Origin: Henckelia pumila
Lineage: Eukaryota; Streptophyta; Magnoliopsida; Lamiales; Gesneriaceae
Direction: 5' to 3'
DNA: 64,000 nt
NCBI RefSeq assembly: GCF_033568475.1
Contig: NC_133121.1
Coordinates: 2,666,001-2,730,000 of the forward strand
Below the pieces are notes generated by a model, which had not been told where the DNA came from, ran no database searches, and saw only the letters and a list, made by a program, of their open reading frames with translations. Position numbers and translations under genes: made by a program. Shown here one piece after another: positions 21,704-59,865 of the stretch (position 1 is the stretch's first letter; the number at the start of each line of letters is the position of its first letter).

Positions 21704-24392
<2,689 letters not shown>

Positions 24393-29315: not shown

Positions 29316-30107
29316 ATGCATACATCATCCAAGAGAATCAAACAGCAAGGGGATAATAACACTAATGATGGTAACAGCTCAGTGACAATGGCGGCGGCGA
29401 GGCTCACAAGTGATGAGGAAGTTTCCATCATGGTGGCAGCTTTGAAGAATGTTATAACTGGTGGCGGCGCCTTTGCGGCGGAATCATCATCGACCAACCA
29501 CACCGCCGCCGCCGGGACTTCTTCTTCTTCTTCCGCCAGTTTCACCACTGGTGCTGTTTCTTTCTCAGTTTCTGAAGACTTGGAAACTTGCGGGTTCTGT
29601 AGGATTAAAGGGTGTTTGGGTTGCCATTTTTTCGGCGAAGAGGAGAAGGACAAAGGCGCGAAGAAGAGGAAGAAGAAGATTTACAGAGGGGTGAGGCAGC
29701 GGCCTTGGGGGAAGTGGGCGGCGGAGATACGGGACCCACACAAGGCGACGCGTGTGTGGCTGGGGACTTTTGAAACGGCGGAGGGAGCGGCGCGAGCTTA
29801 TGATGAAGCGGCTATTAGGTTCCGCGGCCCCAGAGCTAAGCTTAATTTTCCATTTTCCGATTACACTTCCGGCGCCAACACCGAATCCAGCACGACGGCG
29901 GTCCAGCGGCCAAATTTGCCGCAGCAACATCAAGAAAATGTGATCGATGAAATGCCGACGAGAAATTATAATCATGGCAACAATGATCAGAAGCATTTCT
30001 GGGAAATGGTGATTGGTGATGAAGAAATTCAAGAGTGGATGAAGATGATGGATTTTAATGGAGATTCATCGGATTCCGCTGACGGCAATTTTCAAACTCT
30101 AAAATAA
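29316..30107 (+). CDS. ERF109: AP2/ERF transcription factor, ERF109-like (group X)
   Basis: Single-exon gene of 263 residues. The first true ATG is at 29316 ([11 protein letters not shown], a family-type start). Order of parts: a conserved helix [14 protein letters not shown] (about 34-47), a Ser/Ala-rich spacer, and the group X Cys motif C-x2-C-x4-C-x2-C (residues 92-103, [12 protein letters not shown]). A basic nuclear-localisation run KKRKKK and the AP2 domain at about 123-180 ([19 protein letters not shown] through [11 protein letters not shown]) follow, then an acidic tail with [14 protein letters not shown]2 domains of this kind bind GCC-box DNA. Arabidopsis ERF109 (RRTF1) responds to jasmonate, wounding and redox stress; that role is inferred. 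Confidence 0.9.
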
Positions 30108-32063: not shown

Positions 32064-34489
32064 ATGGGTGGTTCTCACAGCCGCGAAGGACTCGACCTTT
32101 CGGATTCGTCGGATTACTCCGACGAGGATGTGGTCGAGAAGGAGATCATTTCTGAAATTTATGCTGATGCGGAAGATTGGAGTCCAACAATGAGTACCAC
32201 AGCAGTGGATGAAGTTGATTCTCGGCTTCGGGATTTAAAGCTGAAATATGGGAAAATCTCGTCCCCTTCTGTTCAGAAAACTGATGGAAAACCCTTAAAC
32301 TCCGTTAAGCTTTATGTACATATTGGTGGAAATACGCCGAAGGCCAAATGGGTAGTTTCAGAGAAGCTTACTTCTTATAAATTTGTTAAGAAGTTGAATA
32401 TTGGAGATGGAGATGAGGAAGACGAGGATGATGAAGTTGAATCATGGGGTGGTGTGGGATTTTGGTTTTTGAAGGTGGGGAAGAAAATTAGGGTGAAGGT
32501 GTCCACTGATATGCAGGTGAAGTTTTTTGGGGATCAGAGGAGGGTTGATTTTGTGGATGGGGGAGTTTGGGCTCTGAATTTTTTTACTGATGAAGAGTAC
32601 AGGAGTTTCGTTACTAAATTTCAGGATTTTTTGTTCGAAAATGTTTATGGGTTGAGGTCCACAGAGGAAAATAAAGTGAAGGTTTATGGGAAAGATTTCA
32701 TTGGATGGTTGAAGCCAGAGGAATCCGATGATTCTATATGGGAGGATGCAGCTGATGGCATCTGGAAGACTCCAGAGAAAGGGCAGGTGGCATTCCCTGC
32801 TCGGGATTTGTCGGAGGAATTCGAGGAGGCATCCACCGGTGGTGGCATTCAAAGCTTGGCTCTAGGTGCATTGGATAACAGTTTCTTGGTTGATGATTCT
32901 GGTGTTCAGGTCGTGAAGAACTTTAGCCATGGGATCCATGGAAAGGGAGTCTATGTAAAGTTCGATGACTGGAGATTGGGGTCAGGTGGGAAGTCTACTC
33001 CCAAAAAGGCCCTTTTGATGAGGGCGGAGACAAACATGATGCTGATGAGTCCGATGGAAGGCAAACCCCACTCTTCGGGGCTTCACCAATTGGACATTGA
33101 GACTGGGAAGATTGTTACAGATTGGAAGTTTGAGAAGGATGGTGCCGATATCACGATGAAAGATATAACCAGCGATGCAAAGGGATCACAGTTAGACCCA
33201 TCCGAGTCAACTTTCTTAGGTCTGGATGATAACAGATTGTGTCAATGGGATATGCGAGATAAGAAGGGGATAGTCCAAAAGATAGCAAGTGCGAATTCTC
33301 CTGTGCTTCAATGGAGCCAAGGGCATCAGTTCTCAAGAGGAACGAATTTTCAATGTTTTGCAACCTCTGGAGACGGGTCGATTGTTGTTGGCTCGCTTGA
33401 TGGTAAAATAAGATTATACTCGAGGACTACTATGAGGCAGGCAAAAACAGCTTTCCCCGGGCTTGGTTCACCTATTACATCGGTTGATGTTACATACGAT
33501 GGGAAGTGGGTATTGGGCACTACAGACACTTATCTGATCTTGATATGCACTTTATTCACGGATAAGGATGGGAAAACAAAAACGGGTTTTAGCGGTCGGA
33601 TGGGGAATAAAATTCCGGCTCCAAGGTTACTGAAGCTGAACCCTGTGGATGCACATTTGGCTGGATCCGATAATAAGTTCCATGCTGGCCATTTCTCTTG
33701 GGTAAGTCTTCTGCATTTCATTAACAAGTAGCCGCAGATTTGCCTGACTTGTTTCTACATAACCAAATATGTCATCATTCTCTTAGAACTTTTATGTCTC
33801 GGAAAGTGATACATTTAATGCTAGACTGGCGGGTTAAATAGCATATAGAACAGCGTATAATCTAATGGAGATGAAATGTCCATAAGTTTTAATCTTCAGA
33901 ATAATATTTTAAAATGCTGAGACAATTTCATGGCAAAAGAAGCATTTGTATCACAAGGAAATTGTTGGAGTTTTATCTGTCAATTTGAAAATAAGAATGC
34001 TTTTGGGGTGGTGTGGCTTATTGATTTCTCATGTATTTTTAAGCACAAATTTAAATGCAATTATGCCAGCTTGTCCTGCATGAAATTCTCGTTAGCTAAA
34101 CAGGGATTTTATACTCTGTTTTGGCTGTGAATTCGATATAGCTTGCATGTCCTTAATTCTCAATCCAACAATGTCATCTAACATTGCATATTTCCTTATT
34201 TGATCAGGTCACTGAAAGTGGGAAGCAAGAAAAACATTTGGTCGCAACCGTGGGCAAGTTCAGTGTAATATGGAATTTTCAGCAAGTTAGGAACAGCGCA
34301 CATATTTGCTATCAGAATCAGCAAGGACTCAAGAGTTGCTACTGCTACAAAATAGTGCCCAAGAATGAATCCATTATTGAAAGTCGGTTCATGCACGATA
34401 AGTTCGCATTCAACAACTCGCCAGAAGCTCCACTGGTTGTGGCCACCCCGATGAAAGTTACATCCGTCAGCATGTTTGGGAAGAGATGA
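32064..34489 (+). CDS. VID27-family protein (CYPRO4-like)
   Basis: Two predicted exons (32064-33701 and 34208-34489) give 639 residues. The start MGGSHSREG carries a Gly at position 2 that could be N-myristoylated. An acidic N-terminal part ([17 protein letters not shown]) is followed by a PH-like region at about 85-225 with the acidic insert [20 protein letters not shown]-terminal VID27 beta-propeller-like domain fills about 270-639, with [49 protein letters not shown] and [23 protein letters not shown]27 in yeast is linked to vacuolar import and degradation of fructose-1,6-bisphosphatase; the plant role is poorly known. The gene looks intact. Confidence 0.9.
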
Positions 34490-41837: not shown

Positions 41838-43092
41838 TGCTGTGGTGACAACCTTATTCGGGGCTTTATCCTTCGGATCTGGGCGAAAAGCACTATATTA
41901 TATTTAAATAATAATTATTAATAAAATATTCAAGATACAAATTACAAGATAAATTTTGTTAAATATATGGACACAATGAATATCTTATTTATATATTTGT
42001 TTCAATTAAATAAATAATTATAAATATACATTAATTAAACTATTAATTATTTTTTTTAAAAAAAACGAAACAATAAAATATTATTTTGTTATTTTACTAT
42101 TATATAATCACAATTATAAACAATTATGCAAATTAAACCCTCTTTTCGGAGCTTTTGAAATTCGCGAAGACACAAACCCTACTTAGTCATTATTGATAGT
42201 TCTAGACCCCATTTTTAACTTTTTAACTCCCAATTAAGTTTTTTTTATCATGTTTTGACCTTTTAAACATAGTTAGATAGTGATGGGAAGAATTTTTAAA
42301 AATCATTTTTCAACTTTTGGTTAACAAAATTTTACAAAATTTAAATTTTTTATTAACGAAAAAGCTAATAAATGTTTTTAAAAAAAAGCTCACTCGAACA
42401 CTATTTTAGGTGGGTGTATTCAATCCGGACTTTTAATGACTTTTTAGAAATGATAGAATTTTATGGAGTTGATAGACTTTTATGGAGTTGTAGAATCTTT
42501 ATAGATTTTGAAAAAAATTCCATAGACTCTAGTAGACTTTTTTGAAGAATTCTGTGGACTTTTATAAACTTTTTCCATAGCTTATTATTGACTTTTTATG
42601 CTCAATCAATATTTTTCATATAAAACTTTTTGTATTTAAGTTTATAAATCCTTTTTTATTAACTTTCAAAAACATGAATCAACCGCTTATATTGATACGA
42701 AATCAGAATTTTTTGTTGTGCCAATTCCAAATTTATAAATAATGAGCAATATTTTTTTTACTAATATATAATAACAAGTTTATATCTATAATTAAAAAAA
42801 TATAAATGACCAATTAAAATACCCAACAATAACATTTTCAGCAGTCTTTTTCTAACAGAAACATTTGCTTTTAGGGAAACAAATTACTGAACGAGCAGAC
42901 GATGAATGAATGTCATTCTTATTTTTTTTCTTAATTTGTTGTACTCAGAATCTCAATTGAATATATAGCTTGTATGTATACCACAACATATACCAATCCA
43001 CTCCTCTTTCGTCTTTCCATGGCAATCCCAAATCCATAAGCATTCAAAATTTCCCACAGGATGAACCAACTTCGGCCATACAATGTATATTG
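41838..43092. other. AT-rich repeat-derived spacer
   Basis: No gene was recognised. From about 42412 it carries the left part of an older repeat made of GGTGTATTCAATC and tatggagtt/gacttttta words, whose counterpart appears beyond the copia element at about 48450-48650. Confidence 0.5.
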
Positions 43093-43538
43093 TGTTGGTC
43101 CCAGGTGTGACATCACGAGATAGAAAAAATAGACACCAAGATTTACGTGGAAAACCTCCAAAAATATTAGGATAAAAACCACGGGCAAGACCAAAAGATT
43201 TCACTATAATATTTGGAGAATTACAACCTCTCTCTGTGTTTCCAAAGAGACACTCACTCTCTTAATACAGGAGAAAACCTATCTCACAAATATATATAGA
43301 ATTAATTAGGAAAAGAGAAGAACTCAAGAATCAGAGAAATGAACTTGAGATGGGATGCTTTTCATTCCAAGAGAATGCACCTATTTATAGGTGCAATCTC
43401 TCGGTTATAAATGTGAAGGAAAAATCTCAATTGAATTTTCCTTCATTTTTGTACGCACAAGTGTAATGAGTGTTGTCTCATTTTTCAACACTTGCTGCCA
43501 CCAATTGCCACCTACCATTTGACTATTCAAACCCAACA
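43093..43538 (-). repeat. Left (3') LTR of the minus-strand copia element
   Basis: 446 bp from TGTTGGTCCCAGG to AAACCCAACA. It is the 3' LTR in the element's own orientation. It is paired with the copy at 47648-48093. Confidence 0.92.
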
Positions 43539-46500
43539 TTTCTCCCACATGGAGATTTGATTGAGAATCAAACACGTCTCCACACGTCCTTTCAATCTTG
43601 CCATTTCCTGCTGCTTACGTTTCTGCTAGGCCACTTGAGGATCTACACCATTCGAACTTATCATTATTCACTGGCTTGGTCAGAAAATCAGCTAAGTTAT
43701 CCTTCGTATGGATCTTCAGCATGTCCACACTTCCTTCCTCTACTACTTCCCGTACAAAGTGAAATTGTACTCCAATGTGTTTAGTCCTGGAATGAAAGGC
43801 TGGATTCCTTGCAATGTGCAAGGCACTCTGACTGTCACAAAACAGAGGAATCTTTTCTTGTTTGTGCCCAAGCTCCTCCAATAACCTTTTAATCCATATT
43901 GCCTCTTTGCAAGCTTGAGTAGCTGCCATGTATTCTGCCTCCGTTGTAGATAATGCCACAACTGTTTGCAGTTTTGAAATCCAGCTGACTGCACCTCCTG
44001 CAACTGTAAACACATAACCAGTAGTAGATTTTCTCTTATCTGGATCACCTGCGTAGTCTGAATCCACATAGCCCTTGAGTGTAAAATCTGATCCTCCAAA
44101 ACATAATGCAGCTTCTGAGGTACCCTTAATGTATCTAAGGATCCTCTTAACCGTGCTCCAATGCTCTTGTCCAGGATTTGCCATATACCGACTGACTGCT
44201 CCCACTGCTTGTGTAATGTCTGGTCTTGTACAAATCATGGCGAACATTAAACTTCCCACTGCTGATGCATACGGTACTCGAGACATCTCCATCTTCTCTG
44301 CTTCACTGCTAGGACACATCTCAGAAGATAACTTGAAGTTAATAGGAAGAGGGGTTGAAACTGGCTTACTATCTTGCATGTTGAAGCGCTGCAAGACTTT
44401 CTTCAAATAATTTTTCTGGGAAAGCCAAATCTTCCTATTGCTTCTGTCTCGGTGAACTTGCATCCCTAGAATCTTGTTTGCTGGTCCCAAGTCCTTCATA
44501 TCAAATTTCCTAGCCAACTGTGCCTTCAATTCTTGGACCCGATCTTTGTTGGGGCCTGCTACCAACATGTCATCCACGTACAACAGCAAAATGATATAAT
44601 CATCATCATCAGACCTCTTGAAATACGTACAAGGGTCTGCACTGAGTCTGTTGTACCCAAGGCTCATGATATAGGAATCAAATCTCTTGTACCAACACCT
44701 CGGCGCCTGTTTGAGACCGTACAGAGATTTATTCAACTTGCAAACCAAGTTCTCTTTGCCTTTTTCTGCAAAACCTTCTGGCTGGAGCATATAGATTTCT
44801 TCTTCAAAATCGCCATTAAGAAATGCTGTTTTCACATCTAGCTGTTCCAGATATAGGTCAAACACCGCACACAATGCCAATACTACTCTGACTGTTGAAA
44901 GTCGAACCACAAGAGAAAATATCTCATTGAAGTCAATACCTTCTTTCTGAGCATACCCTTTGACAACCAATCTCGCACGATACCGCTCCACTTGGTTATT
45001 GCCATCACGCTTGATCTTATAGACCCATCTGTTACCGATAGCTTTCCTCCCTCGTGGTAGTGTAACAAGATCCCAAGTTTTGTTTCTGTCCAATGCTTCC
45101 AATTCTTCCTGCATCGCTGTCATCCACAGGGATACATCTGAGCTTTGAGTAGCCTCATGAAAACTCGATGGATCACCATCCTCTGTTAACAGACAATATG
45201 CAATGTTGCTTTCGGTGACATAATCTGAAAGTCATCCTGGTGGTCTTCTCTCTCGAGTTGACTGCCTCACTTTGGAAACCTCTGACTCAACTGGTTCTTG
45301 TTCTTCGTGCTCTGGTACTGCTTCACAAGAAACTTGATCTTCGTCTGTCTTATTTTCCACCTGAATGATAGTAGTTTCTGAATTCAGTGTGTCTTTGTCT
45401 CCCTTCACTTTATCTTCCTCGAAGATAACATCTCTGCTGATGATAAGCTTGTGGACAGTAGGATCCCACAAGCGAAACCCCTTTATTCCATCAGCATAGC
45501 CCAAGAAGATACACTTTCTAGATTTGGAATCCAACTTTGATCTTTCTTGTTCATTGTACAACACGTACACCGGACTTCCAAATGTATGTAACCGAGAATA
45601 ATTAGCTGGCTTGCCAGTCCACACCTCCATTGGAGTCTTCAAATCAATCGCCACTGAAGGAGAACGATTGATGATATAAGAAGCGGTTTTGACTGCTTCT
45701 GCCCAAAATGACTTTGGTAGACCCGCAGTACTCAACATGGCCCTTGTTCTGTTCAACAACGTTTTGTTCATCTGCTCTGCCACTCCATTCTGCTGAGGCG
45801 TGTAAGCCGTCGTGAACTGTCTTTTGATGCCCTCATGCTGACAGAATGCATCAAATTCATCACTGGTATATTCTCCTCCATTGTCAGTCCTCAAACACTT
45901 GATTTTCTTATCAGAATCAAGTTCAACCCGCGCTTTGAAAACTTTGAAGGCTTCGAAAACATCTGACTTCTTCTTGATTGGATACACCCAACATCTTCTA
46001 GAGAAATCATCAATAAACAAGACAAAGTATCTCGCTCTTCCTAGGGACACCACCGGTGCTTGCCAAACATCAGAATGAATCAGCTCCAATATGCCTTTGC
46101 TTTTGGCAGTAGATGTGCCAAACTTCAATCTGTGTTGTTTACTGGTAACACAATGCTCACAAAAGGGTAGAATCACTTTTGTAAGCCCTGACAACAGCTT
46201 CCGTTCTGAGAGAATCTTCATTCCTCGTTCTGACATATGTCCAAGCTTTCTATGCCACAACACTGTTGATTCTTCTCCCGAACCAATTGATGCAACAGCT
46301 AGTTCCGCCTCTTTGTGTGTTTTCCCCAACAATACATACAGATTTGCAGCAACCTTTTCTGCCTTCATAACCACAAGCGCGCCTTTCACAATTTTCATGA
46401 TCCCTTTCTCAATACGAGTTTTGCACCCAATATCATCCAATTGCCCCAAAGACAAAAGATTTTTTGTCAGGCCCTTCACATGTCGTACCTCCTGTATGGT

Positions 46501-47647
46501 GCGAATAGTACCATCAAACATTTTGATTTTAATGGTACCAACCCCAGCGATTTCCAAGGCATGATCATTTCCCATGAATACAGATCCTCCCGAGATTGGT
46601 TCATACTGGTCGAACCATTCTCTCCTTGACGTCATATGCCACGTCGCTCCTGAATCCATAATCCATGCATCACAAAATTTGTATCTGCCTTCCGCAACCG
46701 TTGCTGCTTTGCTGAATAATATTTCACCACCGCCTGAAGTACTGGCCACATTTCCTTGAGATCCTTTATCGATGCTCTTCGTACACTCTATCTTGAAGTG
46801 CCCTTTACCGCCACATTTAAAGCAGTAAATATTCTTCTTCTTACTTCTTGACTTGGATCTACCATATCTGTGGCTTCCACTGGAGTCACGCTCTGTCAAT
46901 CTTCCTCTCGTCATCGGTAAAGCCTCTGCTTGCTTCGATGTTGCCAACCTATCTTCCTTGTTCCTTCGACGACTCTCTTCTCCAAGAACCGCAGTTAAGA
47001 CGTCGTCAAAATTTAAATTATCCGAAAGAACATTGTTGGTAACATTGATGATGAGCTGATCGTATGAATCTGGTAGACTTTGAAGTAGAAGCTTCGCACG
47101 TTCTTTTTCATCTATTTTATGCCCCATAGACGTGAGCCGGGAAAATAGAGTATTCAGTGTATTGATATGGTCGGTCATCGATGAGGATTCCGCCATCCGA
47201 AGAGTATAAAGCTTTCTCTTTAGGAAAATTTTGTTGTGTAGTGACTTGACCTCGTACAATTTTGTCAGAGTATCCCAAATAACTTTTGCGCTTTTTATTT
47301 CAGAGATACTTGACAAAACTTCATCCGCTATAGCCAAGTGCAAATTGGCAACAACATTGTGATTCATCTCGTTCCACTTTTGATCGTCCGTGACATCCGC
47401 CGGTCTATCTCCAATAGCTGCCAAACAACGTTTCTTTGTTAGAATTGCTTGCACCTTCAATTTCCACAGCAAAAAATTGCTTCCATTGAACTTTTCTATC
47501 TCGTATTTTGCCGTCATCTTGACTACAAGAATCCTGCCTTATAAAATCTTCAAAAAATCTTTTCTGATGTGGAAGATCAGTCACAGCTGCAACCACAGAG
47601 CATACTCAGAATTTTAAAAAATTTTATGCCAAGGCTCTGATACCATT

Positions 47648-48093
47648 TGTTGGTCCCAGGTGCGGCATCACGAGATAGAAACTATGGAAATTAAATAAAA
47701 TAGACACCAAGATTTACGTGAAAACCCCCCAAAAATATTAGGGTAAAAACCACGGGCAAGACCAAAAGATTTCACCATAATATTTGGAGAATTACAACCT
47801 CTCTCTGTGTTTCCAAAGAGACACTCACTCTCTTAATACAGGAAAAAACCTATCTCACAAATATATATAGAATTAATTAGGAAAAGAGAAGAACTCAAGA
47901 ATCAGAGAAATGAACTTGAGATGGGATGCTTTTCATTCCAAGAGAATGCACCTATTTATAGGTGCAATCTCTCGGCTATAAATGTGAAGGAAAATTCTCA
48001 TTTTTGTACGCACAAGTGTAATGAGTGTTGTCTCATTTTCAAACACTTGCTGCCACCAATTGCCACCTACCATTTGACTATTCAAACCCAACA
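47648..48093 (-). repeat. Right (5') LTR of the minus-strand copia element
   Basis: 446 bp, same ends as the left LTR. It is the 5' LTR in the element's own orientation, next to the primer-binding site at about 47629-47646. Confidence 0.92.
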
Positions 48094-48628
48094 TATTGGG
48101 TTATTTTCAAATGCTTCTCTCTGAACACCAATTATGTAGGTTAATCAAACACAATTGAAAACAATTTCAAAATCGGTAAAACACAAAAATCATCTAAAAA
48201 ATTATTGTTTATCGTGTAAGATTATACACAATATAAACTACCAGTTATCATATTCTTAAAAGAAGGCAAAAAGAAGAAGCAAAAGAAGAAGAAACGAATT
48301 TTATACCTTTGGATGGAAGGAAGACGATAAGAGGTGAAGAGAAAACCTGGCCGTTTGAGATAGTAGAAAAAAATCTGTCAAAATCTTTGGTCTAATGGAA
48401 AGACAATTGTAGACTTTTTTTGATGGTACCTTGTGTTTGAATATTTGTACATAAACATTTTAATTAGAATCATTAAAAATCCATGAAATTATTCAATACC
48501 TCTTGATTTTTATAGAGTTTTAAAAAGTTAAGATTGAATACCAGTTGACTTTTTAAAACTCTATAAAAATCTCTTTTGAATACCACCATAATTTTATGGA
48601 GTTTTTAAAAGTCTAGATTGAATACCTC

Positions 48629-50755
48629 TAGACTTTTAAACTTCATATTACTACAATATATTGACAAATTTTATTGATAAAATTAGACTCTACAAGAAAT
48701 ATGAATTTTTGCAGCGTTGCATTAACAAATATCGCACAATAAAAACATGTTAATATAATTATTTATAGCACACTTATAAAAATGACTAAAGGAGCTGTTA
48801 ATAATATTAGGTGTATACATACAACAGCTTGTGTTAATTACACATTGTTGTATTTTAAGATCTACAACGGTTTACATTAATTCAAAGCTGCCAAAAAAAA
48901 AAAACCTACCGAAATTTGATTTCCTTCTATATCTTCTTCTTCATTTGTTGTTGTTGTTTTTTTTTTTTTATTTTATTTAAGATTTCCTTCTTTTCTTATT
49001 TGTCCCAAGAGTAGAAATTCCTTTCCCAAATTTCCCTAAATCTGAAGACAAGATAGAAGAAGATGAAGAAGAAGAACGGCCCCTCTGTCCCAGAATTGAT
49101 AGAAGAAGAACGCCCCTAAATATCTTCCCAGACTTCGTATCCGCTGAATTCCCAAATTTTCAGCCGTTGAAAGCCCCTCTGCCACTGTGATTTGGTTGAG
49201 TTTTGCCTTTGCCTTCAAGCCTTCAATCGTTTGTGAGTTTTTTTTTTCTTTTCTCTTTTTTTTTTCCCCCGAATTCTCTGTCGGTGTCCCTTTTTCGCTC
49301 TATAACTGGCAATTTGCTTATGGGTGTGTTGCATGCGCATCTCTGTTTTTTTTTCTTTGCTGCTTTATTCGCCTGGGAGCTGCGGTACAGAGGACTTGTG
49401 TGTTCCTGTTGATTATATTTGTCGTAGAATGATGTGGTCTTCGATAACCATCGATGAGTCTCATCGCGATTGTTCAAAATTTGGGGTAAATTTCACTTTG
49501 TTTCATCCTTTAGTTGTTTTCAGACCTTAATTGTTCCGTCGATCAAAGACTCGAAGTGGATTCAGAATCTTTTGAAGGGATCTGATAATTTCAATCAAAA
49601 TTTGATTTTTTTTCCCATGTCCAGTGCTATTGCTCCGCGCACATTGTTTTAAGGATGCTCATTTTTTTTTATTTGTTCTTCTCCCCTTTCTTTTAGTTCT
49701 TTGTATGGAATTTATAATCATTACATAGGACCAAGGTTTTGATTGTTGGCATTTCATTTTCTTGATCCTCTTGGGCATAATTTAAATAACACAAGTTGAT
49801 AGCAAGCTTTAAAAATTTTGGATTTTTGAAGAGATCTGTTATTGTAAGAGATCACCGACAATATCTTTTCTTGTGTAGATAAACAAGGCAAAGTTAATAT
49901 GTGACTGTCTAGCATCAAAAGGCTTTGATTTAAAGTTTGAAGAAGCATTTTGTTCTTTACTTATTTGGTAGGTACAACTTTTTATTTTGCTTTTGTGGCA
50001 TTAGTTTTTATTTTCTCCTTGCCTTTTTTTAAAACCAGATTGAGTAATTTCGAGTCTTATAATCCAGAGTGCTGAAGCCACAGCGGCTGAAAGATTAAGG
50101 TAATTAGAGGTGAGCTCTAATCCCAGCTCACAAAAGTCACTGCAAGAAGAAAATAAAAAAAATTCAAGTGCATATCTAAAAACCACTGTTACATGTGCAA
50201 TTATTGCTATATTCCATGCAGCTTGTGAAATTATAATGCCCAAGGGGGGATTAAAAAAAATCAAGGGCTTTGATACCATAAACACGTAAAGAAGATGGAA
50301 GAAGAATGAATTATATTCCTTCTTTGATGTACAACAATTGTATACAGTAAATTTACAAGATAAAAGGGGAAACTAATCCTATAATGGAATAATAAATATT
50401 ACATCTTAAATACAAAATCCTATAATGGAGTAGTAAATATTACATGTTAAATTCATAATATAAGAATCATGCTATCAATTTTAAATAAAAAATCTCGATT
50501 TTAATTTTTTTTTTTTGAAATATTTAGATTATTATACTTGAAATATGTTTCTCTATGTATAATAAATATTTAAAAGTCGGTAATAACAATCTTTGGATTT
50601 GAATGCATAATCCGGCTAGCTTTAATGAATAATATTGGGCCAATCTTTCAAAGTTGACCTACCCAAAAGACTAGCAAATTTGTATAAATGTGTTCGAATG
50701 CAAAATAGCAAAAGCAAAGCATAAACACAAATACTAAGAGTGCTCTGATTTTTAG
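48629..50755. other. Spacer left of the SLF-like gene, with relics of mobile elements
   Basis: Around 48690-48720 the text 'ctctacaagaaatatgaatt' followed by 'ttgcagcg' resembles the CACTACAAGAAA end of CACTA/EnSpm elements. The following 200 bp and the poly-T-rich leader-like sequence at about 48950-49640 could be the start of such an element or of an unrecognised transcript. At about 50261-50330 a tail 'gctttgataccataaacacg' looks like a primer-binding site plus LTR end of a fossil copia fragment. No intact gene was found. Confidence 0.4.
50683..50689 (+). promoter_or_regulatory. TATA box of the SLF-like F-box gene
   Basis: TATAAAT lies 67 bp before the start codon at 50756, a normal spacing for a short plant leader. 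A TTGACC word lies just upstream, near 50654. Confidence 0.55.
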
Positions 50756-51910
50756 ATGGCGAAACATGGATTGCCGGAGGATGTGCTGATTGAAATTATG
50801 GTGCGTCTCCCCGTGAAATCCATACAAAGATTCAAATGCGTTTCAAAATCTTGGCGTGATTTGATTAAGAGCTCTATATTCATCAAAAAGCATCAGAAAC
50901 GCGACGTCAGGAAACATGTGCTTCTTGTGAAACGCTATTTACATCTACATGAATATGGAGCCAAAAATGTATTTTCCTTCCATGATCCAGATTTCCCACA
51001 AGTTTTGGTATCGCCGGATCTGTCCGTCCCTATTCCGGATATTGTACCGCAGATTAACATACAACGAATGTGCTTTGCCACAGTTCATGGTCCTTGCAAT
51101 GGCCTTGTTTGTGTGACATTAGATGAAACCGTTTTCTTGTTCAACCCGGCATTGCGAGAATTCAGATCGCTTCCTCTCTGGAACATCGTGTATCCAGATC
51201 CGCGTTACGTTATCACCAATTTAGATAACGGGTTTGGGTTTGACCCAAATACTGATGCTTACAAGGTTGTCCGAATCTGGCAAATCTGTCATTCACGGGG
51301 CCGCTATAGAGATAGGTCCAAGTACCCTTTGAATGAGACGCTGAGGTTTGATTTGTACAATTCGACCTCGAATTCATGGAAGCAGATTGATCCTGAATTG
51401 CCTAATGTAGATATGGTTTTGTGGTTTCCCTGTTTCCAACTCTTCTTTAACAACTCCATTCACTGGTGTGCATCTACCCTGGAGAATCAATCCGGGTGCA
51501 ATATCCTTTGTTTCGACACGAGCACCGACGCTTTTCGACTGATGGACTATCCTGATCACGGTTTAGACGATGCAGCTGGATACCTCAGGGGCCTGATGGT
51601 GTTGAACGAGAGCCTCGCGATATTTTTTTATCCACCTAAAGAAGCAGTCCATATTTGGGTGATGAAGGAATACGGGGTGAAGGAATCGTGGACCAAACAG
51701 TTCGTCATCGGTCCTCATGACTCTATTGTTTGCCCACTTTTGTGTCTCGGAGATGAACGGTTGCTGTGTGAATCTGAGAATGGCCAGTTGGCTGTTGGGT
51801 CACTCGACCAAAACCATTTCAAGGAATTTCAATTCCATGGGCATCAAAATTATCTCAGAGCCTTGGTTTACGAGGAATGTTTGATAGATTTGGAAATGCT
51901 AATTCCATAG
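50756..51910 (+). CDS. SLF-like: S-locus F-box (SLF)-like protein
   Basis: Single-exon gene of 384 residues, the usual SLF length and structure. The F-box is at about 4-44 (LPEDVLIEIMVRLPVKSIQRFKCVSKSW in two adjoining parts). The F-box-associated domain follows, with SLF-type landmarks: VSPDLSVPIPD, HGPCNGLVCV, FLFNPALREFRSLP, GFGFDPNTDAYKVVRI, NILCFDTSTDAFR, IWVMKEYGVKESW, and a tail resembling HGxxxxLRxxVYxESLxxxxxIP. SLFs form SCF complexes in pollen that ubiquitinate non-self S-RNases. The gene lies 839 bp upstream of, and on the same strand as, an S-RNase-type gene, which supports the SLF reading over a generic F-box gene. It could also be a non-S SLF-like paralogue. The reading frame is intact. 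Confidence 0.85.
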   Translation: MAKHGLPEDVLIEIMVRLPVKSIQRFKCVSKSWRDLIKSSIFIKKHQKRDVRKHVLLVKRYLHLHEYGAKNVFSFHDPDFPQVLVSPDLSVPIPDIVPQINIQRMCFATVHGPCNGLVCVTLDETVFLFNPALREFRSLPLWNIVYPDPRYVITNLDNGFGFDPNTDAYKVVRIWQICHSRGRYRDRSKYPLNETLRFDLYNSTSNSWKQIDPELPNVDMVLWFPCFQLFFNNSIHWCASTLENQSGCNILCFDTSTDAFRLMDYPDHGLDDAAGYLRGLMVLNESLAIFFYPPKEAVHIWVMKEYGVKESWTKQFVIGPHDSIVCPLLCLGDERLLCESENGQLAVGSLDQNHFKEFQFHGHQNYLRALVYEECLIDLEMLIP

Positions 51911-52749
51911 CACTTGTCATTCTGTTTAATTTTATTAGACATGTTTGTTTTAATTATCTAAATTCCATCTGCATGATGTTTAATCATCGTGGTAGTGTGA
52001 AATTTGTTACCGATCCATAAATTTCTTGCACTTATGATACTAGTTATTGAACAAATATGTTCTGGTGATCGTATTTCAAAATGTTAACTAGCCGAATTAA
52101 ATCTCGTTGGATGGGACATCATTGATAAAATGGAAAATATCACTAAATTGGCAGTACAACACTTGAAAGGAAACTCGGCACATGCAGCTAGCCTTTTATT
52201 AAACCTTCTCTGGCCTATTATTCAACATCACCTAATATATATTGGTTTTTAGTTAAATATGTATATTGGTTTTTAGTTAAATTCTATAATAAATGTCTTG
52301 TTCTTTACAGATTTTATTGGAAATTAATGTCGATGTCATCCGTTTCAGGAGGGAGGCGTGCCAATATTGATTTAAACTAATTGTGTCTATTTTGTTACAT
52401 GTGCTGTGCTTAGAGGGAAATCCTAAACTTGATAATTCCATGCATCGGTAAAAATCAATCATATATATTTACAACTACAAACAGAGAATGACACAAAAGT
52501 CATTTAGCCACATATAGTTATTCTCTTCATTTGTAATGTTATATATTTTGGTTGCTTCAATTTCAAATACGTTTGGTAAAATTTGTGGAAATGCGTGTGA
52601 ATTTTCTTCACCTTTCACCATCCATCTTTGTCCTTTGTGTTTGGCTTTGGGATTTTCATAAAAAAAAAAATAGCGTGATTTTGATCTCTATATATAGAAG
52701 ATGCATGAAACTCATTTCGATATAATATTCACGTTAAAAATTTATATTA
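51911..52749. other. Spacer between SLF-like and S-RNase-type genes
   Basis: 3' flank of the F-box gene and promoter of the ribonuclease gene. A roughly 24-bp tandem duplication (tatattggtttttagttaaa twice) lies near 52237-52282. A TATATATA box is at 52689-52696, about 54 bp before the start codon. Confidence 0.55.
52689..52696 (+). promoter_or_regulatory. TATA box of the S-RNase-type gene
   Basis: TATATATA in the context ctctatatatagaag, about 54 bp upstream of the ATG at 52750. The spacing implies a leader of about 25-30 nt. Confidence 0.55.
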
Positions 52750-53634
52750 ATGGCTACTAAACTCTCTTGCTTTCTGACCATCCTGGTTTTCCTTTCGGCT
52801 TTCAACTACCCTTCGGTTACTCAGGCTTTTGATTTCTTCAATCTGGTTTTACAGTGGCCTAACACTGTCTGCCACTATTCAAATTGCTACAGAATTCCTT
52901 TGCCACAGGACTTTACGATTCACGGGTTATGGCCGGAGAACTACACTTCCCAATTGCGACAATGTCCTCATCATCTTGGGCCCGTTCACCAGTCTATCCG
53001 TGTACGTATTAATATTTAAATAAATATAACATATTAATTAATATACTCCATATCTTTACTTAATATATATGCCTGTGTGCACTGTGCACAGTGCACGTAC
53101 ATGTACGCATGTGCATATTTTCGGTTTACTTTGGAGTCCTTATAAAGTTAAAATTTAACTCTTTAATTGACTCGTAGACTGCTATTTAATTTACGTGTAT
53201 GGTATATGTAGAATGCTACCTTGAAGCAAATGTTGAATGCAAGCTGGCCGGACCTGTTTCTCCCTATCACCATGTTCGGCGAAAGGTTTTGGTATCGACA
53301 ATGGTATGACCACGGTACTTGTTGTGCAAATCTATACAACCGGGAAGAATACTTACAAAAGGCGTTGGATTTAAAACCAAGATTCAATCTGTTGGCCATT
53401 CTTGGACAAAATGGCATAACTCCGCAAACACAACACACGGTTTCGAGGGACAAAATTAATTCGTCCATAGTAGCAGCTACAGGTCATGTCCCAATACTCA
53501 AATGCTCCTACCGTACTAATTGGTTAAAAGAAATAGTGATATGCTTCAATCCCAGTGGTGTGTTTGTGATTTCGTGTCCCCCACTTCCCCCTGGAAGCCG
53601 AGTAATTTGCCCCAACTATGTGATGTTCCCATAA
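52750..53634 (+). CDS. S-RNase-like: S-RNase-type T2 ribonuclease (class III, one intron)
   Basis: Two predicted exons (52750-53001, 53212-53634), with a phase-0 donor gtacgt and acceptor tatgtag, give 224 residues. A signal peptide covers about 1-26, then the mature start FDFFNLVLQWPNTVCH, typical of S-RNases. Active-site block 1 is FTIHGLWP (55-62, His-58). Block 2 is FWYRQWYDHGTC (110-121, His-118); the family normally has Glu where Gln-114 lies and often Lys where Asp-117 lies. Further landmarks are NASWPDLF, LKEIVICFNPSG and Cys residues in SCPP and ICPNY. The single intron falls in the hypervariable zone between the two blocks, as in S-RNases. The mature protein has about 16 Lys+Arg against 11 Asp+Glu, so it is basic. 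Potential N-glycosylation sites are Asn-64, 85, 93 and 167. S-RNases are secreted in the style and degrade RNA in self pollen tubes. A class III non-S paralogue cannot be excluded. Confidence 0.87.
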
Positions 53635-53720: not shown

Positions 53721-53746
53721 AATATTATCAGTACTTATCTGCGAAT

Positions 53747-54520
53747 TGTTGGAAATATTGTGTGGACAAGTGTTGGAAAAATGAGATGGTGAATGAGGGT
53801 GAATGAGGCTTTATGCTCATTGTCCCACATTGACAAAATGTGGGAATAAATTGCACTATATATTGTCAAAATTTAGACAATGGGTTGGGGTCCCAAGGGA
53901 TACTCATGTTTGTTAAAGGGAGCGGACTTAGTCTAGGCTAGGTTCGAACCATTAGCCACACGCGCGCGCGCCGTCCGTCCGTCCGAACCGTGGGTTGGGC
54001 TGGCTTTAACATGAATATAAACTTTTTGGACAAAATAAATTAATTATTGAACAATCTGAGTGCATGAAAGTATGCAACTCTTCAGCCGAATCAATGCAAC
54101 TTTTTGTTCCGAACCAGTGCATCTTTTCGGCTGAAAGAGTGCGTCCTTTCGGTCCTAACCATTGCAACTGTTCGGCCGTGCATGCATCGAACTGGTGCGA
54201 CTGTCCGAGGCATCCTTCCAACATCTATAAATAGACCCCGTCTGTGATCATTCATACTCGCTCATTTCTGACTCATTTCTCTTCCTCTTGCATACTCATA
54301 TTCGAGTGGTCTGAGTTTCTTAAACACTTTGAGTGTTCAAAAGATTCTTCGGTTTGTAGTGCTACTACTGAAGTTGCTGGTTAGCGTTCTATCTTGGAAG
54401 ACGATTTGATCAAACCCGTAAGCACCTAGGCGGGCAAATTTGTCTTAAAGATATAGAGTCAAACTCTCGGCTCGCTACGTTCTGGGTTGCTGCGTCTATA
54501 CTGTTGAAGGTTGGATAACA
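53747..54520 (+). repeat. 5' LTR of the plus-strand copia element
   Basis: 774 bp, TGTTGG to GGATAACA. It contains a tataaatag promoter box near 54223 (ctataaatagaccccg) and a CG-rich tract near 53960-53990. Confidence 0.92.
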
Positions 54521-57500
54521 AGTTTAAGACAAAGTTTTTGATCATGGCTGCTGTTCCAACTCCTCCTGTTACGCTGCCCCCACCACCACCACCTGTTACG
54601 CCGCCACCGGCTGTTGTCACGGCCCCTGCTGCTTCTACTGCACATGCCGAGAGACCTGAGAAGTTCTCCGGTTCTGACTTCAAAACATGGCAGCAGAAGA
54701 TGTTGTTCTACCTCACAACACTTCATCTTGCAAGGTTTTTGAAGGAAACTGTTGCTGTTCCGGCACCGGATGCTGACACACAAACAATGTCTGCCTTTGA
54801 TGCATGGTGTCACAGTGACTTCTTGTGCCGAAATTACATACTGAATGGGTTGGACAATACGCTGTATAGTGTATATTCTGCAACCAAGACTGCTAAGGAA
54901 CTGTGGGAATCCTTAGAGAAAAAGTACAAGACAGAGGATGCTGGCACGAAGAAGTTCGTAGTCGGTAAGTTTCTCGAGTTTAAAATGGTTGATGCCAAGA
55001 CGGTGATTAGCAAAGTGCAAGAGTTCCAAATCATCCTCCATGATATAATGACTGAAGGGATGATGGTCAGCGAGTCCTTCCAAGTGGCTGCATTAATCGA
55101 GAAATTTCCACCTTTATGGAAGGAGTTCAAGAATTACTTGAAGCACAAACGCAAGGAAATGGGGCTCCAAGACTTGATCGTCAGACTGCGAATTGAAGAA
55201 GACAATCGCAAAGCGGAGATCAAAGCTGGTAAGATGCCAATGGAAGCGAAGGCAAATTTGGTGGAGCCAAACGCTATAAAGAAAAGAAAGCATTTTGGAA
55301 AAGATACAAAGCAAGGGATGCACAAGAAATGGAAAGGAACCTGCTGGAACTGTGGAAAGTCGAACCACAAAGCCAAGGATTGTCGCTTACCGAAGAAGGA
55401 CAATCAGTACCGGGCAAATATGGTCCAACACAGATTTGTCCGAGATAGATTTGTCCGAGATAGATTTGTCAGCAGTAGTCTTTGAGGCTAACATGGTTGA
55501 TCATCCCAAAGAATGGTTTATCGACACCGGAGCTACACGACATGTCTGTGCTGACAAGGATCTATTCTCAAAGTATACTCCTATAAGTGGACGAGAGCTC
55601 TATATGGGTAACAATGCGACTTCTAAGATCGTTGGATTAGGCAAAGTGGTGATCAAGATGACTTCGGGAAAAGAGCTTACTCTCATCGATGTTCTCCATG
55701 TTCCGGACATAAGAAAGAATCTTGTATCGGGGTCTAGACTGGTCAAGGCCGGATTTAGAATAGTGTTTGAAGCCGGCAAAGTTGTAATCATGAAAAATGG
55801 ACAGTTCCTAGGAAAAGGATATATAGAAAAGGGACTGTTCAAAATGAATGTAATGACTGTACTTCGTGATCTTGAAAGTAATAAAGTTAATGCTTTGAAT
55901 TACTTGGTTGAATGTTCTAATTTATGGCATACTAGATTAGGACATGTTAACTTCAACACTTTGCAAAAACTTGGAAAACTAAATCTTATTCCAAGGACTA
56001 AGATTGATTCAAACTATAAATGTGAAGTATGTGTTGAAGCTAAATTAACTAAAGTACCTTTTCACACAGTGGAAAGAAGTACAATACCTCTAGAACTAAT
56101 TCACACCGATGTTTGTGATTTAAAGTTTGTACAAACTAGAGGTGGGAAAAAGTACTTTATTACATTCATAGATGATTGCACAAGATTCTGCTATGTGTTT
56201 CTTTTAAGAAGCAAAGATGAAGCTCTTGAAGCATTTAAGACCTATAAGACTGAAGTCGAAAATCAATTAGGCAAACGAATCAAGAAAATTCGTAGTGATA
56301 GAGGAGGTGAATATGTTACTCCGTTTGAAGAATTTTGCAATGAATCTGGCATTATTCATCAAACAACTGCTCCTTATTCACCACAATCTAATGGCATTGC
56401 GGAAAGGAAAAACCGTACTCTGAAAGAAATGATGAATGCCATGCTAATAAGTTCTGGACTTCCCCAAAACTTGTGGGGGGAAGCAATACTTTCGGCAAAT
56501 CATATACTTAACAAAATTCCACATAAAAAGAAGAATGAAACTCCTTACAAATTGTGGAAAGGACATAAGCCCTCATACAAATACTTGAAAGTGTGGGGGT
56601 GTTTGGCGAAAGTAGAAATACCAAAGCCAAAACAAGTGAAGATCGGACCTAAGACTGTAGATTGCATCTTCATTGGATATGCAAACAACAGTAGTGCATA
56701 TAGATTCCTAGTGCACAAGTCAGTGATTCCTGATATACATGAAAATACAATTATTGAATCAAGGAATGCTGCATTTTTTGAGAACATCTTTCCTTCTAAG
56801 GAAGAGAAAGAAACGAGTTCTATTAAACGAGCTCATGAATCTACAAATGAGGAAACTCATGAAAACGAAGAACCAAGGCGTAGTAAGAGAGCTAAGATAG
56901 CTAAAACTTTTGGTCCTGATTTTCTTAGTTATGCTATAGAAAATGATCCAAGGACTTTAAGTGAAGCGCTATCCAGTCCTGATGCTCCACTTTGGAAAGA
57001 GGCCATAAAAAGCGAAATAGATTCCATCATGCAAAATCATACTTGGGAGTTAGTAGATATCCCACCGGAAAGCAAACCTTTAGGATGCAAATGGATCCTA
57101 AAAATAAAATACAAAGCTGATGGATCTGTTGAAAAATACAAAGCAAGGTTAGTGGCCAAAAGATTTAGACAAAAAGAAGGGTTGGATTTCTTCGACACAT
57201 ATTCACCTGTTACGAGAATAACGTCTATTCGAGTACTTATAGCAATTGTTGCTTTAAATAATCTCGAAATACATCAAATGGATGTTAAAACGGCCTTTTT
57301 AAATGGTGAGTTAGAGGAAGAAATATATATGGCACAACCTGAAGGATTTATTGCTCCCGGTCAAGAAAAGAAAGTGTGTCGCCTCATTAAATCATTGTAT
57401 GGGCTCAAACAAGCTCCTAAACAATGGCACGAAAAGTTTGACAAAACAATGATGTCAAATGGATTCAAGATTAATGAGTGTGATAAATGTGTTTATATAA

Positions 57501-59041
57501 AAGGCACACATGACTCATATGTAATTGTTTGTCTATATGTAGACGACATGCTCATAATGGGTAGTAATCATGATATCATCATGAAAACTAAGAAAATGTT
57601 GACAAAACATTTTGATATGAAAGATATGGGAGAAGCAGACGTTATCTTAGGAATTAAGATTGTAAAAGCGCCTGAAGGAATTATCCTAACACAATCTCAT
57701 TACATTGAGAAAGTACTTAGGAAATTCAATGCATATGACGTCACACCGTTAAGATCACCTGTGGATTTAAGTTTACATTTATCCAAAAATCGAGGTGAAC
57801 CCGTATCTCAACAGCAATATGCAAGGATAATTGGGAGTCTAATGTATATTACAAATTGTACTCGTCCTGATATTGCATACTCAATAAATAAATTGAGTAG
57901 ATTTACAAGTAATCCTAGTCATGATCATTGGAAAGCGTTAGAAAGAGTATTTAAATACTTAAAGTACTCAATGGACTATGGATTACATTATAGCACATTT
58001 CCTTCCGTACTAGAAGGATACTGTGATGCCAATTGGATATCCGACACAAAAGACTCTAAATCCACAAGTGGATATGTGTTCACCATCGGTGGAGGAGCTG
58101 TGTCGTGGAAATCCTCTAAACAAACGTGTATAGCTCGTTCAACTATGGAATCGGAATTCATAGCTCTAGACAAAGCGGGAGAAGAAGCGGAATGACTTCG
58201 TAATTTCCTAGAGGATATTCCGTGTTGGATGAAACCAGTGCCAACAATTATGATACATTGCGATAGTCAAGCGGCTATTGGTAGGGCACAAAGTAGTATG
58301 TATAATGGTAAGTCAAGACACATACGTCGAAGACATAATACCATTAGGCAGTTGATCTCAAATGGAGTTATCGCAGTTGATTATGTAAAATCAAAAGATA
58401 ACTTAGCCGATCCGTTGACAAAAGGTTTAGGACGAGATCAAGTTAACTGCTTATCAAGAGGAATGAGATTAAAACCTACAAAATTAAAGAATATTCATAG
58501 CGGAAACCCAACCTTGTAGATTGGAGATCCCAAGATCTTGGTTCAATGGGACAATCAAGTTATGAACGTTCACGTGCACTCAGAACTTTGTTCTACTCTC
58601 ATTCCTAGGATAAAAGTGCAACCTGTGCAAGTAGTGAGGGTAAGTTTTAACAAACTTTTAATGATTCCTATATTTCTCTAAGAAATAAAGTATGACAGGA
58701 TACTCATATACTAGGAGGTCACCTATTTAAGTGTGAAGACGGGCCGCTTCAACGAAACACTTAAGAATCCAAGATGTTGTCCAGGGCCAAAACGGACAAA
58801 ACCATGAGAACAAATAAAGTGTGAGAAAAATTATTGTGTGAATATTGTTGTCTTGGTTTACATCAACGGCTGAATAGTTCAAGACATCACGTTCACTAGG
58901 CAGCCTAGTAAATCCGATAGTATTTCACTAAGGAAGGTTCAAAGCCGCAAGCTACCTCTCCCCATACAATAATTTTTCGAAAAGAAACTCTGTTTTAGCA
59001 TATGCATACATATTCGCATAAATCACATTCATGTGGGGGAT

Positions 59042-59865
59042 TGTTGGAAATATTGTGTGGACAAGTGTTGGAAAAATGAGATGGTGAATGAGGGTGAATG
59101 AGGCTTTATGCTCATTGTCCCACATTGACAAAATGTGGGAATAAATTGCACTATATATTGTCAAAATTTAGACAATGGGTTGGGGTCCCAAGGGATACCC
59201 ATGTTTGTTAAAGGGAGCGGACTTAGTCTAGGCTAGGTTCGAACCATTAGCCACACGCGCGCGCGCCGCCGCCGTCCGACCGGCCGGCCCGGCTCGGCAC
59301 GGACCATGGGCGTGGGCGTGGGCTGGGCTGGGCTGGCTTTAACATGAATATAAACTTTTTGGACAAAATAAATTAATTATTTTATTAATTATTGAACAAT
59401 CTGAGTGCATGAAAGTATGCAACTCTTCAGCCGAATCAGTGCAACTTTTTGTTCTGAACCAGTGCATCTTTTCGGCTGAAAGAGTGCGTCCTTTCGGTCC
59501 TAACCATTGCAACTGTTCGGCCGTGCATGCATCGAACTGGTGCGACTATTCGAGGCATCCTTCCAACATCTATAAATAGACCCCGTCTGTGATCATTCAT
59601 ACTCGCTCATTTCTGACTCATTTCTCTTCCTCTTGCATACTCATATTCGAGTGGTCTGAGTTTCTTAAACACTTTGAGTGTTCAAAAGATTCTTCGGTTT
59701 GTAGTGCTACTACTGAAGTTGCTGGTTAGCGTTCTATCTTGGGAGACGATTTGATCAAACCCGTAAGCACCTAGGCGGGCAAATTTGTCTTAAAGATAGA
59801 GAGTCAAACTCTCGGCTCGCTACGTTCTGGGTTGCTGTGTCTATACTGTTGAAGGTTGGATAACA
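59042..59865 (+). repeat. 3' LTR of the plus-strand copia element
   Basis: 824 bp. It is the same sequence as the 5' LTR apart from a handful of substitutions, a longer CG-rich tract near 59255-59335 and a 12-bp duplication near 59370-59395. Confidence 0.92.

Follow-up and report, generated by a model that had tools for sequence, protein, structure and literature searches.

A probable S-like locus in Henckelia pumila: SLF-type F-box genes linked to a class III T2 ribonuclease with a changed active site

Introduction

Type-1 S-loci, as known from the Plantaginaceae, Solanaceae, Rosaceae and other families, join two gene families in tight linkage with transposable elements nearby: SLF-type F-box genes, and a basic, secreted T2 ribonuclease (RNase) whose gene has one intron. 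In a functional type-1 S-locus the RNase is linked to many SLFs, and the numbers given in PMC6784882, PMC4451870 and PMC12403065 are 16–20 for Petunia and 37 for A. majus. PMC4451870 also describes a single pollen gene, SFB, in Prunus, so having few SLFs does not by itself rule out an S-locus. Finding one SLF next to one S-RNase does not suffice to call one. Further marks of a functional type-1 S-locus are RNase expression confined to the style and SLF expression confined to pollen, high polymorphism among alleles, suppressed recombination and cosegregation with incompatibility. As defined in PMC8774079, a type-1 S-like locus combines an S-like RNase with few, closely linked SLF-subfamily genes outside the S-locus of that genome. 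The Antirrhinum hispanicum locus on chromosome 7 (AhChr7-SLFL1, AhChr7-S-like-RNase; Zhao et al. 2021, PMC8774079) spans 33 kb and is described with one S-like SLF, a further copy that is a pseudogene, and an S-like RNase of weak expression. Possible relict S-loci of cotton, cacao, citrus and bean, in which class III RNases lie by S-locus-type F-box genes, are described with 6–15 F-box loci, at least two of them with stops, and 2–3 RNases (Ramanauskas and Igic 2017, PMC5598434).

Here we analyse a window of 64,000 nucleotides from Henckelia pumila (contig NC_133121.1, here C2, positions 2,666,001 to 2,730,000 of the forward strand), in which unprefixed positions are numbered from the first letter. 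It contains one SLF and the RNase of a locus (C2:2.717–2.750 Mb) in which two SLFs and one RNase were found. This locus has the gene families, linkage, neighbouring transposable elements and RNase structure of a type-1 S-locus, but it differs in its two SLFs, its altered active site and the presence of a better S-locus candidate in the same genome. Its kind is already described in Antirrhinum, where the chromosome 7 locus of A. hispanicum is the best precedent: in both, an SLF-subfamily gene and a second copy lie by one class III RNase within about 33 kb, separate from a large multi-SLF S-locus, although both SLF copies are open here whereas one is a pseudogene there. In the active site of the window RNase, Asp replaces Lys; the comparison with A. 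hispanicum drew on the published description of that locus. The class III RNase by S-locus-type F-box genes also recalls the possible relict loci described in PMC5598434, but the Henckelia locus, with open frames in all three genes, is smaller.

Results

The two genes lie head to tail on one strand, the RNase downstream, across a gap of 839 bp, and are flanked to the left and to the right by Copia elements.

43089–48094, − strand: Copia LTR retrotransposon (LTRs 43089–43539 and 47645–48094, K 0.031), 2.7 kb left of the SLF
49439–51956, + strand: stretch common to the window SLF and the second SLF at C2:2749074 (blastn and tblastn on fetched loci)
50683–50688, + strand: TATA-like box 5′ of the SLF (string match only)
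50756–51910, + strand: S-like SLF gene, intronless, encoding an F-box and FBA protein of 384 aa (single open frame, Pfam, TIGR01640, clade)
52689–52694, + strand: TATA-like box 5′ of the RNase (string match only)
52750–53001, + strand: S-like RNase exon 1, with likely signal peptide, C-x4-C, the FTIHGLWPEN active-site segment and the first catalytic His (sequence, PF00445)
53002–53211, + strand: single phase-0 GT-AG intron separating the two active-site segments (sequence)
53212–53634, + strand: S-like RNase exon 2, with FWYRQWYDHGTCC and the second catalytic His (sequence, PF00445, alignment)
53745–59865, + strand: Copia LTR retrotransposon (LTRs 53745–54520 and 59040–59865, K 0.017), starting 110 bp past the RNase stop

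An earlier note on this DNA had described an SLF-type F-box gene, a one-intron, basic, secreted T2 RNase, their spacing and orientation, and retrotransposons on both sides. This description holds: both genes are intact, the F-box gene falls in the SLF-subfamily clade, the RNase is of class III, and gap and strand are as described. A tblastn search with both proteins revealed no further convincing piece of either gene within the window (best other E 0.12).

The product of the window SLF matches the F-box (E 6.8e-11) and FBA_1 (E 2.8e-9) domains of Pfam and F_box_assoc_1 of NCBIfam (TIGR01640, E 2.5e-26); a PDB search with a cut-off of E 0.1 gave no match. In a tree built from 23 of 30 fetched loci, all from the window's own genome and none from another species, 15 of 15 SLF-type rows form one clade (support 100/99) apart from 8 other F-box proteins, which places this FBA-type F-box protein in the SLF subfamily. 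Within that clade, the window SLF, C2:2749 and C4:155837 form a separate group, again with support of 100/99. The tree includes some truncated frames and omits the near-copies L039, L044 and L045, the broken or split L046, L047 and L050, and L055.

The earlier note had proposed a search for more SLF copies nearby, and there is one, 87% identical to the window SLF, at C2:2749074–2750225, 32 kb away and beyond the window. Identity between the two loci is 85.6% over 49439–50243 and 93.1% over 50629–51956. Neither blastn nor tblastn on the fetched loci detected an RNase match beside the second SLF, indicating that the RNase lies outside the duplicated unit. Both C2 copies are open frames that differ mostly outside the F-box, and their omega of 0.83 (bootstrap 0.51–1.43) is not distinguishable from neutral. 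Between the window SLF and the open copy at C4:155 Mb, dS is 0.46 and omega 0.43 (bootstrap 0.31–0.59). The SLF pair probably still encodes SCF adaptors that can bind some S-RNases.

The window RNase has 224 aa, nine cysteines, a mature pI of 8.75 and, by eye, a likely signal peptide; PF00445 is matched by exon 1 (4.7e-10) and exon 2 (1.6e-23). By sequence it is a T2 RNase like the SF11-RNase of Nicotiana alata (PDB 1ioo, E 3e-25), and resembles it in the FTIHGLWPDN and HG[ST]CC motifs and in having Gln where Glu is usual. Of the residues expected in an active RNase T2, the two catalytic histidines are present (IHGLWP, DHGTCC) and the Lys beside the second is absent: Asp (GAC, 53308–53310) precedes this His, unlike in SF11-RNase, which retains Lys, as do 13 of the 13 other rows covering the column in the 15-row exon-2 alignment. 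In RNase T2 enzymes, activity depends on this Lys. Because Asp stands where this active-site Lys is usual, the window RNase is probably weak or inactive. Among the papers listed in a literature search, none joined RNase Rh with Lys108.

Intron position, pI and the exon-2 tree place the window RNase in class III. Its only intron, in phase 0, falls between the first and the second active-site segment, the pattern of PMC5598434, whose position numbers were matched by place rather than by alignment. Its mature pI exceeds the 7.5 expected of class III; PMC5598434 gives a range of 8.10–9.73 for S-RNases, and pI ranges of class III RNases are also given in PMC4451870. Amino acid patterns 1 and 2 are expected in class III and pattern 4 is not (PMC4451870); compared by example rather than by the full sets of allowed letters, the protein reads FTIHGLWPEN and WPDLFLP, with nothing like the CPSSNG example. 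In the exon-2 tree the window RNase groups with class III, apart from the class I rows (split 93/92), in a short alignment of 15 rows and 131 columns with one functional S-RNase (SF11, on a long branch). The tree uses one piece per copy; further pieces of L012, L014, L017 and L023, the C2:179.689 Mb copy and all exon-1 pieces are omitted, and, as in the SLF tree, the rows include no Antirrhinum S-RNase or SLF. The nearest RNases of the same genome in exon 2 are dead copies at C2:196.67 Mb, not the S-RNase candidate on C4, while exon 1 is closer to broken copies at C4:155.85 Mb (54–57% identity) than to the C4:67.569 Mb gene (47%). Grouping with non-S class III RNases, which the earlier note held would speak against an S-locus, is thus half borne out.

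We searched the whole 885 Mb genome; only the best candidates were scored (107 of 209 for SLF), so that SLF and RNase counts are lower bounds. At C4:67.57–69.49 Mb there are at least 17 SLF-type places over 1.92 Mb, several of them incomplete or broken. Two, at C4:69.489 and 69.491 Mb, form an inverted copy of two other places, 99.2–99.6% alike over the main stretches, which may be an assembly artefact. The same region contains, at C4:67.569 Mb, an open two-exon class III RNase with the standard active-site motif FWEYEWDKHGTC and a phase-0 intron likewise between the two active-site segments. Among the best candidates scored, uninterrupted class III exon 2 copies were found twice in the genome, in the window and at this C4 locus. 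With at least 17 SLF-type places there against two at the window locus, C4:67.57–69.49 Mb is a far better S-locus candidate than the window pair, while the window locus has the composition of a type-1 S-like locus. SLF and class III RNase sequences also occur together at C4:155.84–155.86 Mb, where an open SLF copy lies 13 kb from broken RNase pieces (C4:155.85 Mb). Other related copies are broken as well: RNase pieces at C2:194.78 and C2:196.67 Mb, and an SLF at C2:184.79 Mb. The active-site substitution, the second SLF and the larger C4 SLF/RNase cluster were absent from the earlier note.

The genes flanking the pair were compared with the rest of the genome.

13661–14917, − strand: U-box E3 gene (PUB), with a close paralogue at C4:69252596–69253840 within the S-locus span (genome search)
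29316–30104, + strand: AP2/ERF gene, whose highest-scoring partner, with 51% over 213 aa, lies at C3:42.207 Mb (genome search)
32061–33728, + strand: VID27-like gene, partner at C3:42.218 Mb (genome search)

The U-box paralogue is 75% identical, the next best match being 37%, and is the sole close one among the best candidates scored; dS for the pair is 0.89 (bootstrap 0.71–1.11). One of seven flanking genes tested (the U-box gene) is therefore shared with the C4 S-locus span, and two of seven (VID27-like and ERF) pair with C3:42.2 Mb, where no SLF or RNase appears among the matches listed. The AP2/ERF gene has a further partner at C4:206.05 Mb (67% over 178 aa). The SLF at C4:155.839 Mb, like the broken one at C2:184.796 Mb, is directly followed by broken VID27-like pieces; none of the papers listed in a literature search named VID27 or CYPRO4 as an S-locus neighbour, which is a weak negative. 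The 585-aa exon of the RING gene matched a near copy at a distance of 84 kb and, at 26%, one other sequence, and no informative partner was found for the PPR gene (next best 43%, among the best 70 of 1119 candidates), the exon at 21704–22138 or the 37.5-kb gene.

Discussion

The SLF-subfamily F-box gene, the class III RNase, the C4 cluster with the other open RNase and the common U-box gene together make it highly probable that the window pair belongs to a type-1 S-like locus, a paralogue made by duplication of an ancestral S-locus and kept beside the likely real one. SLF, class III RNase and U-box gene are all common to the C4 span, the last being one marker of seven. An S-locus region would have been duplicated with these three genes in both copies, the split being roughly as old as, or a little older than, the genome-scale duplication to which the C3:42.2 Mb block would also go back; this date is suggested because dS is 0.89 for the U-box pair and 1.1–1.5 for the SLFs, values by the Nei–Gojobori method, which nears saturation above 1. 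With two working loci in a genome, competitive interaction would be expected to break self-incompatibility (PMC8774079), so the extra copy would have been disarmed. This would have happened through the RNase, by the exchange of Lys for Asp, and the RNase may also be little expressed, by analogy with the Antirrhinum chromosome 7 S-like locus. The SLF later gave rise to another copy at a distance of 32 kb, and decayed copies of the pair exist elsewhere in the genome. Such duplicates form a graded series in one genome, from the full candidate at C4:67.57–69.49 Mb, through the intact window pair with its changed active site and the open SLF with broken RNase at C4:155.84 Mb, to dead copies at C2:184.79, 194.78 and 196.67 Mb, so that the proposed disarming of extra S-loci to keep or regain self-incompatibility is directly testable in one species. 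Of the earlier note's 'candidate self-incompatibility locus or relic', family identity and the link to the S-locus stand and 'relic' came close; the S-locus itself was set aside after the whole-genome searches, given the C4 cluster, the two SLFs and the lost Lys.

Whether the locus still has a function separates this reading from one in which a pair of the same origin is a dying relic, its genes merely unbroken so far and without present function, which we consider possible though rather doubtful. The near-neutral omega of the SLF sisters, the broken state of the related copies and the young Copia insertion 110 bp past the RNase would suit such a relic. Against it stand the SLF omega of 0.43 to the open C4:155 copy and a simulation of an unselected RNase frame in which indels were not counted: of 4000 runs at 0.2 changes per site, a value near half the dS between the SLF and that copy, just 0.3% stayed free of stops. 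At 0.04 changes per site 29% of frames stayed stop-free, so a recent release from selection is possible. Between RNase exon 1 and the C4:155.85 Mb copy, dS is 0.98 (0.55–1.95), compared with 0.46 for the SLFs, so the simulation may place the split of the RNases too late. Selection probably kept the RNase frame open during part of its history, which implies that the protein has, or had until recently, some role. Under the S-like locus reading its present role would be that of a weak or non-catalytic secreted RNase-like protein. That the RNase, disarmed at its active site instead of through gene loss, and its own SLFs are kept as a small separate module outside self-incompatibility seems to us unlikely; such a module would pair the secreted protein with a private SCF partner, free of self-recognition, and could for example act in the style as a guard or decoy, or keep foreign pollen in check.

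A still weaker case can be made for a second working S-locus, acting in self-incompatibility or interspecific pollen rejection. The open frames, TATA-like boxes, likely signal peptide, basic pI and both catalytic histidines would suit it, as would the divergence of the two SLFs mostly outside the F-box and the single pollen gene described for Prunus (PMC4451870). Two SLFs against at least 17 places at C4, the missing active-site Lys and the expected loss of incompatibility with two working loci make it very improbable. Both trees, and the recurrence of the linkage elsewhere in the genome, refute the idea that generic, unrelated F-box and T2 RNase genes merely happen to lie side by side: F-box genes are abundant (111 matches to the SLF query in the genome), but this one lies in the SLF clade, the RNase is of class III, SLF-type genes are few in 885 Mb, and the two families occur together at two further places. 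The earlier note had likewise held that chance hardly explains linkage together with family identity. The compactness that it pointed out is not peculiar to the window, since the C4 RNase lies about 1.7 kb from its nearest SLF.

Structure of the SLF/RNase pair

The interval 50756-53634 had been proposed in the earlier note as a compact SLF/S-RNase pair, a candidate self-incompatibility locus or relic. Our analysis bears out the positions of both genes, which lie on the same strand with 839 bp between them.

50756-51910, same strand as the RNase: SLF-type F-box gene, one open frame of 384 aa with F-box and FBA domains
52750-53001 and 53212-53634, same strand as the F-box gene: exons of a class III T2 RNase with a phase-0 GT-AG intron, product 224 aa

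The RNase product has a pI of 8.75 and nine cysteines, and it likely carries a signal peptide, as judged by eye. Retrotransposons do flank the pair on both sides: a Copia element (LTR pair K 0.031) lies 2.7 kb to the left and another (K 0.017) 110 bp to the right. No further convincing piece of either gene was found by tblastn in the 64-kb window. A genome search with the SLF protein uncovered a sister gene on the same contig (C2:2749074-2750225), which is open and 87% identical to the window SLF. The stretch between the RNase and this second SLF (C2:2730001-2749000) contains long open retrotransposon frames, Gypsy- and Copia-polyprotein-like by eye.

Copies elsewhere in the genome and the likely S-locus

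The searched assembly, in which the window occupies C2:2666001-2730000, comprises 885 Mb in 133 contigs; four of these (C1-C4, 183-234 Mb each) together account for ~822 Mb, and the species may therefore have four very large chromosomes. An SLF protein query gave at least 111 genome matches (best 107 of 209 candidates scored). At least 17 SLF-type places, 40-52% identical to the window SLF in the main piece, occupy 1.92 Mb at C4:67.57-69.49 Mb. A further open copy at C4:155837471 is 67% identical, and the remaining F-box genes among the candidates scored reach at most 37% where the match covers at least 300 residues. A PF00445 search returned at least 28 exon-level matches, and exon 2 of the two open RNase genes (window and C4:67.569 Mb) retrieved 13 and 14 matches among those listed. 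Among these matches only the two query genes are uninterrupted class III genes. The others are either class I-like genes or broken copies, the latter at C4:67.556, C4:67.737-67.739, C2:194.784 and C2:196.67 Mb.

The C4:67.57-69.49 Mb cluster combines 17 SLF-type places, of which several are incomplete or broken, with RNase pseudogenes and a single open RNase. It has the shape of type-1 S-loci as described in two reports (PMC8774079, PMC6784882), and its gene content makes it the likely real S-locus of the plant. Its candidate S-RNase at C4:67.569 Mb, probably the true pistil determinant, is open, with two exons, a phase-0 intron, the motif FWEYEWDKHGTC and a standard active site, and stands head-to-head with an open SLF ~1.7 kb away (C4:67568983-67572616). 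Two of the 17 places (C4:69.489-69.493 Mb) form an inverted near-copy of two others (C4:68.544-68.549 Mb), 0.94 Mb distant and 99.2-99.6% alike across the main stretches; either part of the S-locus was recently duplicated in inverted orientation or this is an artefact of the assembly.

At C4:155837471-155856000, broken VID27 pieces come immediately after the open SLF, and 13 kb on lie RNase exon-1 copies (C4:155.852 and C4:155.855 Mb) with a stop in each; no exon 2 was found beside them in the PF00445 and exon-2 genome searches. Judged from sequence, this is a second S-like locus, the term for an S-like RNase linked to few SLF-subfamily genes outside the S-locus of the same genome; here the SLF outlived the RNase. 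Several class III exon-1 copies in series with a broken exon 2 at C2:194783142-194786890 have the appearance of a decayed tandem RNase cluster; no SLF lies near it among the SLF-query matches listed.

Phylogenetic position

The F-box tree holds 23 proteins out of 30 loci fetched, all from this genome with no Antirrhinum rows, and sets 15 SLF-type rows apart from 8 others (support 100/99). Among the SLF-type rows, the window SLF groups with its sister and the C4:155.84 Mb copy (100/99), and this clade stands next to the C4 S-locus groups rather than among them; the branching order of those groups is not supported. The RNase tree, built from exon 2 only (15 rows, 131 columns, no Antirrhinum rows), places the window RNase with the class III set, class I rows being separate (93/92). 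It lies closest to the two dead C2:196.67 Mb copies (86/89), followed by the C4 RNase; SF11 and MC1 have long branches and unsure placement. For exon 1, the broken C4:155.85 Mb copies are nearest (54-57%), with C4:67.569 Mb at 47%.

A probable S-like locus with an altered active site

Among described systems, the window locus most resembles the chromosome 7 S-like locus of Antirrhinum hispanicum, and we read it as the same kind. There, a weakly expressed S-like RNase shares 33 kb with an S-like SLF and an SLF pseudogene, and the S-locus of the genus is on chromosome 8 (PMC8774079); the window locus spans ~33 kb from first to second SLF. In Petunia, the A. majus version of the chromosome 7 SLF could still break incompatibility, which it did through inactivation of one S-RNase (PMC8774079). 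The window RNase may likewise be expressed at a low level, and the locus may still have a function.

The active-site segment of the window RNase, FWYRQWYDHGTCC, keeps both catalytic histidines. It has Gln for Glu, as do Nicotiana SF11-RNase and the C2:196.67 Mb copies. Directly ahead of the second His, the window RNase alone has Asp, where 13 of the 13 other rows covering the column have Lys. This Lys presumably helps catalysis, and the window enzyme would have weak activity. In a fish enzyme, changes of another His in the active-site segment are reported most likely to lower activity, with comparable changes present in some plant S-RNases (PMC2720953). We read the window locus as disarmed, at least in part, by its active-site change.

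Selection

The SLF sisters have a dN/dS of 0.83 (0.51-1.43); split by region, and on few changes, it is 0.26 over alignment codons 1-60 (F-box region) and 0.96 over the rest. With the C4:155 copy used to polarise the changes, 9 synonymous and 19 other changes fall on the window lineage and 7 and 22 on the sister lineage (11 sites ambiguous), and neither lineage departs from neutral. Between the window SLF and the C4:155 copy, dN/dS is 0.43 (0.31-0.59). In 4000 simulations without selection, the RNase frame stayed stop-free in 0.3% of cases at 0.2 changes per site (half of the SLF dS to the C4:155 copy), in 4.9% at 0.1 and in 29% at 0.04. Exon 1 against the broken C4:155.85 Mb copy gives dS 0.98 (0.55-1.95) and dN/dS 0.36 (0.16-0.73) over 81 codons. 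On these results, selection probably acted on the window RNase during part of the period after its split from this copy; it may have been released recently.

Flanking genes and duplication history

Seven flanking genes were searched against the genome. For the U-box gene, the matches listed include a single close paralogue, which lies within the S-locus span at C4:69.2526 Mb (75% over 415 aa, next-best match 37%; dS 0.89, 0.71-1.11). The best-scoring partners of the VID27-like gene (dS 1.00, 0.80-1.29) and the ERF gene lie at C3:42.218 and C3:42.207 Mb, and the ERF gene also matches C4:206.05 Mb (67% over 178 aa); no SLF or RNase was among the genome-search matches listed at C3:42.2 Mb. The window SLF has a dS of 1.1-1.5, near saturation, against four S-locus SLFs, 0.46 against the C4:155.84 Mb copy and 0.08 against its sister. 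The window locus would have originated in a genome-scale duplication. Two SLFs, the one at C4:155.839 Mb and a broken one at C2:184.796 Mb, have VID27 pieces directly behind them, and the RNase pseudogenes at C2:196.67 Mb have a VID27 copy ~120 kb away; linkage of SLF, RNase and VID27 thus recurs in several duplicates.

Among the genome matches listed there was no informative partner for the PPR gene, the exon 21704-22138 (whose gene weakly matches a fucosyltransferase) or the 37.5-kb gene. The RING gene has, upstream of its RING-H2 exon, a 585-aa exon with no Pfam match (7074-8831); a copy of this 585-aa exon, 98% identical, lies at C2:2589360-2591021, 84 kb upstream, so the left flank itself was duplicated recently. 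Between the 585-aa exon and the RING exon, 9546-9939 is a 197-bp tandem duplication, 98% identical.
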